From Acidisphaera sp. L21 (lineage in GTDB: Bacteria; Pseudomonadota; Alphaproteobacteria; Acetobacterales; Acetobacteraceae): 64,000 nucleotides of DNA. The position numbers were made by a program, and so were the translations under genes. This document shows, in pieces, positions 28,925 to 58,783 of this stretch. Numbering within the stretch: the stretch's first letter is position 1; each line of letters begins with the position of its first letter. The stretch lies in contig NZ_LMUY01000010.1 in NCBI RefSeq assembly GCF_009765685.1, forward strand, positions 57,739-121,738, written 5' to 3'. Under the pieces are notes generated by a model. That model had not been told where the DNA came from and did not search any database. It saw only the letters and a program-made list of their open reading frames with translations.

Positions 28925-29335
28925 ATGGTGGACAACGTCGCGCCGAAACAGGTGTGGGAGGCGCTGGTCAGCGATGCCCACGCCAAGTTGGTGGATGTGC
29001 GCACCGATATGGAATGGGCGCAGATTGGCGTGCCCGATCTGGACGGGGCCGGCAAGACGCCGACGCTGATTTCCTGGCAGGTCGCGCCGACCATGCAGGT
29101 GAACGCCGGGTTCGTGGACGATCTGAAATCAGCGGGGCTCACGCCGGAAGACCATATCTATTTTCTATGCCGCAGCGGCGTTCGCTCGCTGGCGGCGGCG
29201 CATGCAGCCCAGGCGGCGGGTTTTCCGCACGTCTACAACATCGCCGACGGCTTCGAGGGACCTCCGAACGGCCAAGGCATCCGCGGTGAAGTCGCCGGCT
29301 GGCAAGCCGACGAACTGCCATGGAAGCAGAACTGA
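28925..29335 (+). CDS. Rhodanese-like domain protein
   Basis: 136-residue single rhodanese domain. Motifs: 'HAKLVDVRTDMEWAQIGVPD', active-site loop 'IYFLCRSGVRSLAAAHAAQA' with the catalytic Cys, and 'GFPHVYNIADGFEGPPNGQG'. The final GEVAGWQ-type segment is usual for alphaproteobacterial members. A strong GAGG/GAGGA ribosome site precedes the ATG. Divergent pairing with the cysteine synthase gene suggests a role in sulfur transfer. Confidence 0.92.
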   Translation: MVDNVAPKQVWEALVSDAHAKLVDVRTDMEWAQIGVPDLDGAGKTPTLISWQVAPTMQVNAGFVDDLKSAGLTPEDHIYFLCRSGVRSLAAAHAAQAAGFPHVYNIADGFEGPPNGQGIRGEVAGWQADELPWKQN

Positions 29336-56622: not shown

Positions 56623-57516
56623 ATGCCATATACGATCACGGCGTTTTACCGCTTTACACCATTGAGCGATGCCGCTGCGTCTCACCGGGCATTCAAGCAG
56701 GCGCTCGCGCCGCTTGGCCTTTGCGGGACATTGCTGATTGCCCCGGAAGGCATCAATGGTACGATCGCGGGAAGCCCGGACGCCATCGAGATGATGTTGT
56801 CGTTCTTGCACGAACAGACTGGTTTGCTGCGCCAGGAGGTCAAGTTTTCCGCGGCGGAGGTGAAGCCGTTCAATCGGCTGAAAGTACGCCTGAAGCGTGA
56901 GATCATCACCTTCAACCAACCGACCGCAAATCCTGCACGTCTACCTGGCACATACGTGGCGCCAAAGGAGTGGAACCTGCTTCTGGACGATCCCGAGGTC
57001 ACCGTGCTGGACACGCGCAATCTTTACGAAACCGCCATTGGAAGGTTCACGGGCGCCAGCGATCCGCAAATCGAGAACTTTACAGAGTTCGCCGCCTACG
57101 TCCGTTCCAAACTTGACCCGGCCAAGAATAGAAAGATCGCGATGTATTGCACGGGCGGTATCCGGTGCGAGAAAGCCTCCGCCTTCATGCGTGCCGAAGG
57201 CTTCGATGAAGTCTATCACCTGCAGGGCGGCATCCTCAGGTATTTGGAGGAGATGCCTGAATCCGAAAGCCGATGGCAGGGAGATTGTTACGTCTTCGAC
57301 AAACGGATGGCAGTTGGGCACGGTTTGGCGACCGGCCACTATTCGATGTGCTTCTGCTGCGGCTACCCGCTGTCGACGGGTGATGTGACACACCCTCTCT
57401 ACGAAGCCGGCGTGTCTTGTGGCCACTGCCACGGGGAGACGAGTGCTGCCGACAAAGCCCGGTTTCGGGAGCGCCAGCGCCAGGTCCAAAGGCGACCAAC
57501 TGAACCCGCCACGTAG
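56623..57516 (+). CDS. trhO: tRNA uridine(34) hydroxylase TrhO (YceA-type rhodanese)
   Basis: 297-residue protein. The N-terminal acylphosphatase-like domain ('ITAFYRFTPLSDAAASHRAF', 'GTLLIAPEGINGTIAGSPDA') is followed by a rhodanese domain with 'PEVTVLDTRNLYETAIGRFT' and active-site Cys near 176 in 'IAMYCTGGIRCEKASAFM', then 'GFDEVYHLQGGILRYLEEMP' and a C-terminal Cys-rich tail ('MCFCCGYPL', 'CGHCHGE'). TrhO makes 5-hydroxyuridine at tRNA wobble position 34. Codon use is less GC-rich than neighbouring genes, hinting at recent acquisition. Confidence 0.93.
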   Translation: MPYTITAFYRFTPLSDAAASHRAFKQALAPLGLCGTLLIAPEGINGTIAGSPDAIEMMLSFLHEQTGLLRQEVKFSAAEVKPFNRLKVRLKREIITFNQPTANPARLPGTYVAPKEWNLLLDDPEVTVLDTRNLYETAIGRFTGASDPQIENFTEFAAYVRSKLDPAKNRKIAMYCTGGIRCEKASAFMRAEGFDEVYHLQGGILRYLEEMPESESRWQGDCYVFDKRMAVGHGLATGHYSMCFCCGYPLSTGDVTHPLYEAGVSCGHCHGETSAADKARFRERQRQVQRRPTEPAT

Positions 57517-57753
57517 GCTGCAATTCTCGCCGCTTGCGGCCCGTACCGACAATCTGCTTGACGATGGCAGTCGGTCGCAACAGTGTCGCCGGACATGCTC
57601 AGCAACCAGGCCCTGTGTGATCGACGCCGACGCAGCTGTTCCCAAGCGGCGGCTGTTTGCGCTGCGCGTCGATCAGCGTCCTTTCGGATGGTGACTGCCT
57701 CATCGTAGGTCCCACCCGCCGAAACGACCCGGCCCGCATTCCCGAACCTCCGC
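57517..57753. other. Intergenic region between trhO and argC hairpin
   Basis: 237 nt with no convincing gene on either strand. Short open frames here lack ribosome sites and conserved sequence. The segment moves from lower-GC sequence near trhO to the usual GC-rich composition near argC, so a junction may lie within it. Confidence 0.5.
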
Positions 57754-57780
57754 AGCCCTCGGCTTCGGGGGTTTTATTTT
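57752..57780 (+). terminator. Intrinsic terminator-like hairpin with T-tract upstream of argC
   Basis: A GC-rich stem (CCCTCG paired with CGGGGG through one G-T wobble, extended by A/G-T pairs) with a GCTT loop is followed directly by TTTTATTTT (57772-57780). It ends 25 nt before the argC ATG. This is the only hairpin in the window with a proper T-tract. It either ends an upstream transcript or acts as a leader attenuator for argC. Confidence 0.65.
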
Positions 57781-57805
57781 GCCCGACCACTAGAAGGACA
57801 GCACC

Positions 57806-58783
57806 ATGAGTATTCGCGCCGGCATTGTCGGGATCAGCGGTTTTGGCGGCGGTGAGGCAATGCGCCTGATCGCGAGCCACCCTTCGTTCGAACTCATCTA
57901 CGCGGCAGGCGAGGGCAGCGCCGGCAGCCGTCTGGTGGATCGCTTCCCCGGCGTGCCGGCCAAGCTGGCCGAACTGGTGATCGAGAAGTGGGACCCTGCG
58001 ACCCTGCCGAAGCTGGACGTGTTATTCGCCTCGCTGCCGACCGGCGCCTCGGCCGAAGCGCTGACGCGGATCCCCAAGGACGTGAAGATCGTCGATATCG
58101 GCGGCGACCACCGCTACGCAGAAGGATGGGCTTACGGCCTGGCCGACGTCTGGCCGGGCCAGATCGAGGGCCAGACCCGTGTTGCCAACCCCGGTTGCTT
58201 CCCCGCGGCAACGCTGACGGCGCTGGCGCCGCTGTTGGCCAACAGGCTGATCGAGCCCGGCAACATCATCATCGACGCCAAGACGGGCATCTCCGGCGCC
58301 GGGCGGGGCGGCGGCGACAGCAGGTTCGGCTACGCCGAGAGCAACGAGAACTTGGTGCCTTACGGTCTGCTCAAGCACGTCCACATGCCCGAGATTGCCG
58401 AGACGATCGAGCGGCTGAGCGGCGGCAGCGCGGCCGGGTTGGTGTTCACGCCCCATTTGGTGCCGATGACCCGCGGCGTGCTCGTCACCATCTACTGCCG
58501 CGGTCGCGCCACCACGGTTGAGTGCCTGAACGCGGCCCGGCGCTTCTACGCCGGGCGGGCGTTCGTGCGCGTCACCGACAAGCCGCCGCAGACCAAATGG
58601 GCTACCGGCTCGAACCTGGCATTTGTTAGTTATGCAGCCGATCCAGAGCGCAACCTGGTCATCGCGATGGGCGTGGTCGACAATTTGGGCAAGGGAGCGG
58701 CTGGTCAGGCGGTGCAGAACGCTAACCTGATCTGCGGCCTGCCAGAAACCGAGGGGCTGGATGGCGGACCCGTCTGGCCATGA
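57806..58783 (+). CDS. argC: N-acetyl-gamma-glutamyl-phosphate reductase
   Basis: 325-residue arginine biosynthesis enzyme reducing N-acetylglutamyl phosphate with NADPH. The Rossmann start is 'RAGIVGISGFGGGEAMRLIA', the catalytic Cys near 131 is in 'RVANPGCFPAATLTALAPL', followed by 'IIDAKTGISGAGRGGGDSRF', 'FTPHLVPMTRGVLVTIYCRG' and the ending 'NLGKGAAGQAVQNANLICGL'. Length is slightly short of the usual 345-350. AAGGA lies about 8 nt before the ATG. No other arg gene is in the window. Confidence 0.94.
   Translation: MSIRAGIVGISGFGGGEAMRLIASHPSFELIYAAGEGSAGSRLVDRFPGVPAKLAELVIEKWDPATLPKLDVLFASLPTGASAEALTRIPKDVKIVDIGGDHRYAEGWAYGLADVWPGQIEGQTRVANPGCFPAATLTALAPLLANRLIEPGNIIIDAKTGISGAGRGGGDSRFGYAESNENLVPYGLLKHVHMPEIAETIERLSGGSAAGLVFTPHLVPMTRGVLVTIYCRGRATTVECLNAARRFYAGRAFVRVTDKPPQTKWATGSNLAFVSYAADPERNLVIAMGVVDNLGKGAAGQAVQNANLICGLPETEGLDGGPVWP

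Follow-up and report, generated by a model that had tools for sequence, protein, structure and literature searches.

The window, a 64,000-nucleotide stretch of the Acidisphaera sp. L21 genome, harbors a gene for a type 1 N-acetyl-gamma-glutamyl-phosphate reductase (argC), an arginine-pathway gene whose product scores 278.6 bits against TIGR01850 (cut-off 233.6). The nearest larger gene upstream on the same strand, trhO (NF001133, above its cut-off), ends at position 57516. The intervening DNA contains an unannotated ORF of 37 codons, followed by a stem-loop and a T-tract (Table 1). The original prediction that no gene ends just upstream of the hairpin was right with regard to trhO but overlooked this short ORF, which ends at 57708.

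RNA folding gives the stem-loop as GAACCTCCG-C-AGCC-CTC-GGCT-T-CGGGGGTTT, at -19.3 kcal/mol (z -2.87; equally stable folds in 2 of 200 shuffles). It thereby confirms that a T-tracted hairpin lies closely upstream of argC, with a stem that begins slightly earlier than had been claimed, at 57744. The T-tract ends at 57780, which leaves 25 nt to the argC ATG at 57806. The hairpin had also been described as the sole one in the window with a strong T-tract, and this holds among the terminator-scan matches listed: only the argC hairpin has 8 T in the 9 bases right after the stem, the nearest rival (40858) having the tail CGCCCTTTTT. Simple scans of the whole window returned terminator candidates at or below the level of shuffled sequence (observed vs. 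shuffled: 5 vs. 10.1, 7 vs. 10.5, 11 vs. 11.2, and 3 vs. 7.6), so that the match count is uninformative and the case needs more than the hairpin.

Table 1. Features of the argC leader region, in window positions; regulatory roles are predicted.
Feature	Position	Strand	Basis or remark
-35 box TTGACG of the putative leader promoter	57558..57563	+	TTGAC spacing to leader ATG conserved
Putative leader peptide ORF, 37 aa, MLSNQALCDRRRRSCSQAAAVCAARRSASFRMVTASS; stop TAG 57706-57708	57595..57708	+	predicted start at or next to the first transcript base
1:2 (protector) hairpin GATCGACGC...GCGTCGATC, Arg codons in 5′ arm	57619..57674	+	folding, alignment
Candidate regulatory codons CGA CGC CGA CGC (four Arg)	57622..57633	+	Arg run in 57/57 leaders
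Region 2, long-range 5′ strand of the antiterminator (GCGGCGG 57646-57652 onwards)	57646..57671	+	folding, alignment
Region 3, 3′ strand of the antiterminator, including terminator 5′ arm (CCGC 57750-57753)	57730..57756	+	folding, alignment
Predicted intrinsic terminator hairpin (3:4)	57744..57774	+	terminator scan, folding, 57-leader alignment
T-tract TTTTATTTT	57772..57780	+	sequence
argC Shine-Dalgarno region AGAAGGACAG (putative)	57792..57801	+	sequence; function inferred
argC, type 1 N-acetyl-gamma-glutamyl-phosphate reductase, 325 aa, frame intact	57806..58783	+	TIGR01850

Conservation was assessed at the best 80 of 218 argC relatives together with four further loci (L001, which is the window's own locus, L003, L004, and L005), giving 84 loci, of which 83 are testable since L055 has no upstream sequence. 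The hairpin motif occurs upstream of argC in 57 of the 83: directly before argC in 52 and, in the other 5, before a gene for a GNAT acetyltransferase that lies upstream of argC. The hosts include Roseomonas and relatives, Belnapia, Reyranella, Bosea, and Methylobacterium. The hairpin is absent from 26 testable argC loci. A scan of both strands of L004 revealed none, and three Bradyrhizobium and three Cupriavidus gilardii loci are without it though their argC is 90-93% identical to that of the window. No two of the 57 leaders are identical; by sequence they belong to type A (n = 41, ...DRRRR) or type B (n = 16, ...NRRRRC).

These leaders were selected by the terminator motif alone. All 57 contain a run of Arg codons (four in 27 leaders, five in 27, and three in 3), and in 56 of them an ATG in frame with the run is found at most 15 codons away. 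In these 56, codon 3 is CGA, CGC, or CGT, and thus Arg every time, while codon 4 is Arg in 53. Codon periodicity was looked for in the leader ORF and none was detected, with no excess of third-position variation between the ATG and the Arg run. The lack of codon-level constraint outside the run is expected if only the regulatory codons matter; translation of the leader is a step that we infer. A TTGAC motif precedes the leader ATG at a nearly constant distance in 55 of the 57 leaders (37 nt in 47 loci, 36 in 3, and 38 in 5). The -10-like sequence of the window (CAGTGT, 57581-57586) is weak, has a poor consensus and is placed by spacing only, and the sigma-70 scan gave no report there. A TTGAC located 37 ± 1 nt before the ATG would place a sigma-70-type transcript start at about the ATG; judging from the sequence, the leader mRNA is probably leaderless. 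The conserved RNA spans about 57558 to 57780. In L040 and L101 the promoter is absent and the upstream sequence is unlike that of the other leaders, and L040 is also without the ATG, which suggests decayed or re-wired leader copies.

Three competing structures were scored in an alignment of the 57 leaders (A1, 221 columns) against slid versions. The terminator is paired in 99.9% of its pair cells, compared with 33-73% for the slid versions, which is beyond chance; both-side (compensatory) changes do not occur in it. The 1:2 hairpin, in which the Arg codons are embedded, is paired in 80.8% of cells (slid 30-52%) and has 2 both-side-change pairs, a number reached by 403 of 500 shuffles. The antiterminator (2:3) is mutually exclusive with both the terminator and the Arg-codon hairpin. 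Its outer helix (GCGG.GG/CC-CCGC) uses the terminator 5′ arm and is paired in all 57 leaders (100%), and the structure as a whole is paired in 82.5% of cells (slid 40-54%). It has 14 both-side-change pairs, 12 of them in the inner stem, a count that 68 of 500 shuffles also attain; none of the 500 attains its covariation score or its share of paired cells. Covariation is weak overall because the leader sequence is nearly invariant. The final antiterminator was chosen after the folds of six of these leaders, the checks on it being the alignment counts and a control with shuffled leader middles. A first guess (GGGCUGCG with CGCAGCCC) was dropped, as its probability exceeded 0.5 in only 4 of the 57 leaders when stalled and in 8 when free.

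Formation of the antiterminator depends on the position of the ribosome. Nascent leaders were folded with the RNA ending just before the terminator 3′ arm and with only the RNA downstream of the ribosome kept. With the ribosome on the second Arg codon (Arg2), the antiterminator probability exceeds 0.5 in 49 of 57 leaders, with the ribosome on some Arg codon in 55, and in the free RNA in none; for the window leader the values are 0.96 at Arg2 vs. 0.00 free. Shuffling the leader middle lowers the proportion from 49/57 to 42/285. If the ribosome is represented by a masked footprint with the A site on Arg codons 1-4, the mean probabilities are 0.41, 0.39, 0.26, and 0.38, and only 25-42% of leaders exceed 0.5. 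The mean is 0.29 and 0.13 at one and two codons before the run, 0.12 on the fifth codon (Arg in 27 leaders; 11% of leaders above 0.5) and at most 0.05 farther off, that is, more than two codons before or more than one after the run. At equilibrium, the terminator of the full-length leader usually wins despite the stalled ribosome (antiterminator above 0.5 in 9 of 57 at Arg2). Because the equilibrium fold favors the terminator even in the stalled state, the model needs co-transcriptional kinetics, as in classical attenuators.

The layout is that of a ribosome-mediated attenuator: a short leader ORF contains codons for the amino acid of the downstream pathway, a predicted intrinsic terminator lies between this ORF and the gene, and a mutually exclusive antiterminator is favored only with the ribosome on the regulatory codons, as computed on the nascent leader only. 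On the strength of sequence and modeling, we give a probability of about 0.88 to the reading that an arginine-specific ribosome-mediated transcription attenuator precedes argC and that the hairpin serves as its terminator. The original prediction had named an attenuator in an arginine-responsive leader as one option, and this option is now strongly supported by the Arg-codon leader ORF, the three exclusive helices, the dependence of folding on ribosome position and the conservation before argC. In the proposed mechanism, transcription would begin at or beside the AUG of the leader ORF. When Arg-tRNA is ample, the ribosome would pass the Arg codons, so that 1:2 re-forms behind it and region 3 is left free; the hairpin 3:4 would then form and RNA polymerase would stop at the T-tract. 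Under a shortage of charged Arg-tRNA, the ribosome would stall on CGA-CGC-CGA-CGC and cover the 5′ arm of 1:2. Region 2 may then pair with region 3 (GCGGCGG with the CCGC of the terminator, plus neighboring pairs), whereby the terminator would come too late to form and argC would be transcribed.

A stable terminator that wins at equilibrium could also be a plain one, closing an unannotated small gene or sRNA, with argC transcribed from a promoter of its own between 57780 and 57806; under any reading, termination would leave a small leader RNA of about 185 nt. Such an arrangement is highly improbable, since the promoter scan reports nothing in the 25 nt left before the argC ATG, and since a plain terminator would not explain an antiterminator that competes for the terminator 5′ arm, is paired in 57/57 leaders and depends on occupancy of the Arg codons. 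In addition, argC or GNAT consistently follows the element while the other neighbors change. We likewise see little chance for an RNA switch that is independent of translation (an arginine riboswitch or a protein-bound antiterminator), in which the Arg codons would be an accident of the conserved CGACGCCGACGC stem. The Arg run does double as an arm of a conserved hairpin, the anchoring string CGACGCCG is present in 57/57 leaders, and the peptide outside the run is without codon periodicity. However, the antiterminator forms in 0/57 free RNAs, the ATG is constant in position, lies at the predicted transcript start and shares the frame of the run, and codon 3 varies yet always encodes Arg, with codon 4 nearly as constant. 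Nor does Rfam 15 contain a family that matches at or above its gathering score, the best match to the leader reaching 17.5 bits of the 50 needed; the window gives two tRNAs only, and 11 related loci give no match.

The hairpin had alternatively been regarded as the leftover terminator of a lost upstream gene, rpsI, which would make it what remained of the rplM-rpsI operon once a rearrangement had taken rpsI away from argC. In this lineage rpsI indeed precedes an argC (L111, L112, L113). The present genome keeps rpsI (NF001099), directly before a second argC on contig C15, but this argC is a different gene (TIGR01851, argC_other), and inspection of the gap between the two revealed no such hairpin. 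A comparison with relatives that keep rpsI upstream of argC had been proposed; tblastn finds rpsI in 0 of the 84 argC loci, most of which reach up to 3 kb upstream and some much less. With neither a homologous hairpin after rpsI nor rpsI near argC in relatives that have the hairpin, and with an Arg leader and antiterminator accompanying the hairpin in 57 loci, the probability of such a relic is close to nil. In four loci that carry no attenuator (L041, L056, L057, and L078), a type-2 argC lies directly upstream of the type-1 gene, ~1030 to 120 nt before it; the TIGR01851 assignment was made for L056.

The predicted attenuator is unevenly distributed. The gene neighborhood of argC varies among the 28 loci listed, and type-1 argC occurs on six plasmid records at 83-88% identity (Paracoccus, Agrobacterium, Methylobacterium, Paraburkholderia, and Roseomonas). 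Given the varying neighbors and the plasmid copies, argC looks mobile, with the leader often travelling along. The leader types cluster in the argC tree (83 rows), yet with several changes and many weak forks, and owing to the latter no history was drawn from it. Rhizobiales bacterium 2SD has type-1 argC twice, on separate contigs, and either copy has a predicted attenuator of its own (L067, L085). With a covariance model built from 50 of the 57 leaders, the Acidisphaera genome yields a single strong site (E 1e-40, the next at 0.15), and 32 of 120 family genomes have matches at E ≤ 0.01. Eleven of these, this genome included, are below 1e-16: argC is part of the fetched locus in nine of them, and in the remaining two (L129, L131) GNAT is present, with no argC within ~1.5 kb. 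The weaker matches that were inspected are mostly without an Arg leader. Among 385 sampled genomes of the class, a search allowing up to 2 mismatches to the terminator pattern hit this genome and one site without argC nearby, which we regard as a chance match. Two sites in 385 sampled genomes indicate that the element is patchy and not class-wide.

Genes for the GNAT acetyltransferase (about 175 aa, PF00583) are found under predicted Arg-codon attenuators with or without argC. In L003, L052, L064, L103, and L066, the GNAT gene follows the hairpin and argC comes after it, in L066 ~0.7 kb further on. A GNAT match is present in 57 of the 120 family genomes, and 8 of the 30 GNAT loci fetched have an Arg-run leader ORF and terminator upstream, the other 22 being without one or both. 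The leaders belong to types A/B in L153, L154, and L155 (the same sites as L129, L003, and L131), to type C in L171 and L173 (L173 and L147 are one site, which precedes the gene of a SnoaL-GNAT protein) and to type D in L165, L174, and L176. Type C is also represented by L138, before a SnoaL-like ORF only, and by L149, near a contig end. When both strands of the window and the fetched loci (1.85 Mb, counting each strand) were searched for an Arg leader plus terminator, 64 distinct matches emerged, which were sorted by hand into 52 of types A/B, four of type C, three of type D, four of background (L007, the minus strand of L034, the second one in L094, and window position 29220) and one doubtful case (L135). 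L135 (G451:C1:560383-560532) was left out: a GAACCCCCG...CGGGGGTTTTTT hairpin precedes a LysE-like ORF and there is no convincing Arg leader. This ORF resembles a LysE-family exporter, and the possible leader ORF, with RRRRK, is long and doubtful. L157 has a weak hairpin and no Arg run.

The diverged leaders of types C and D stand before relatives of the GNAT gene (L138, L147, L165, L171, L174, and L176); the one downstream product read fully is fused to a SnoaL-like domain. Their fold contrast is weaker, with a probability of terminator-arm sequestration of 0.37-1.00 stalled vs. 0.06-0.99 free, and L171 displays no stalled-vs.-free contrast. The closest named relatives of the GNAT protein are unspecific as to substrate.

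Arginine genes are the textbook case of repressor control (ArgR). An arginine-codon attenuator conserved before argC across dozens of alphaproteobacterial genomes would extend the classical mechanism to a new specificity. It should function wherever the host's ribosomes read the leader and would represent a self-contained, easily tested sensor; it would also tie an uncharacterised GNAT family to arginine metabolism. More tentatively, and with odds that we place at roughly one in three, these elements may constitute an undescribed class of leaderless arginine-sensing attenuators that travels with a mobile type-1 argC isozyme and also controls GNAT, alone or with argC. If so, argC would bring its own starvation switch into new hosts, with no local repressor needed, and the GNAT protein would be an enzyme of arginine starvation, perhaps acting as an alternative N-acetylglutamate synthase.

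The classical proteobacterial his, trp, leu, thr, ilv, and phe attenuators share this layout, with codons for the end product and 1:2, 2:3, and 3:4 pairing; to our knowledge, arginine is not among the specificities of the classical proteobacterial operon attenuators. An arginine-codon attenuator before argC was not found in searches of the open-access literature, to which the claim of novelty is limited, and the word "arginine" is absent from the main text of the attenuator survey of Naville and Gautheret (PMC2965389). In Sinorhizobium meliloti, trpL-trpE(G) (rnTrpL/peTrpL) is reported to have a leader transcript that starts with the AUG of the leader ORF (PMC7298713, PMC10117765). Like the argC element as predicted here, it is an alphaproteobacterial ribosome-mediated attenuator before one biosynthetic gene. 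It differs in its Trp codons, 14-aa peptide and target trpE(G), as opposed to Arg codons, a peptide whose length of about 30-46 aa varies with the species and the start codon, and argC; furthermore, the leaderless start is reported for trpL and only predicted for the argC leader. The uORF-C motifs, such as the Rhodobacterales cysS attenuator, likewise place tandem codons for the cognate amino acid in an alphaproteobacterial uORF ahead of a metabolic gene (PMC8632094). There, the codons are for Cys and the gene is cysS, whereas the argC leader has Arg codons, and "argC" does not occur in the main text of that paper.

The nearest match in the literature searched is the speF leader of Salmonella (orf34), in which consecutive Arg codons in the leader ORF are described as reading the arginine supply (PMC6386406). 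Consecutive Arg codons are what the two leaders have in common. According to the same report, the speF leader has two such codons, and this polyamine gene is controlled through Rho-dependent termination, through RNase G decay and at the level of translation. In contrast, the argC leader mostly has four or five Arg codons and a predicted intrinsic terminator before a gene of arginine synthesis. The kind of element is classical. Its apparent novelty lies in the amino acid sensed, in argC as the target, in a transcript start that is likely leaderless, and in the association with GNAT and with a mobile argC.
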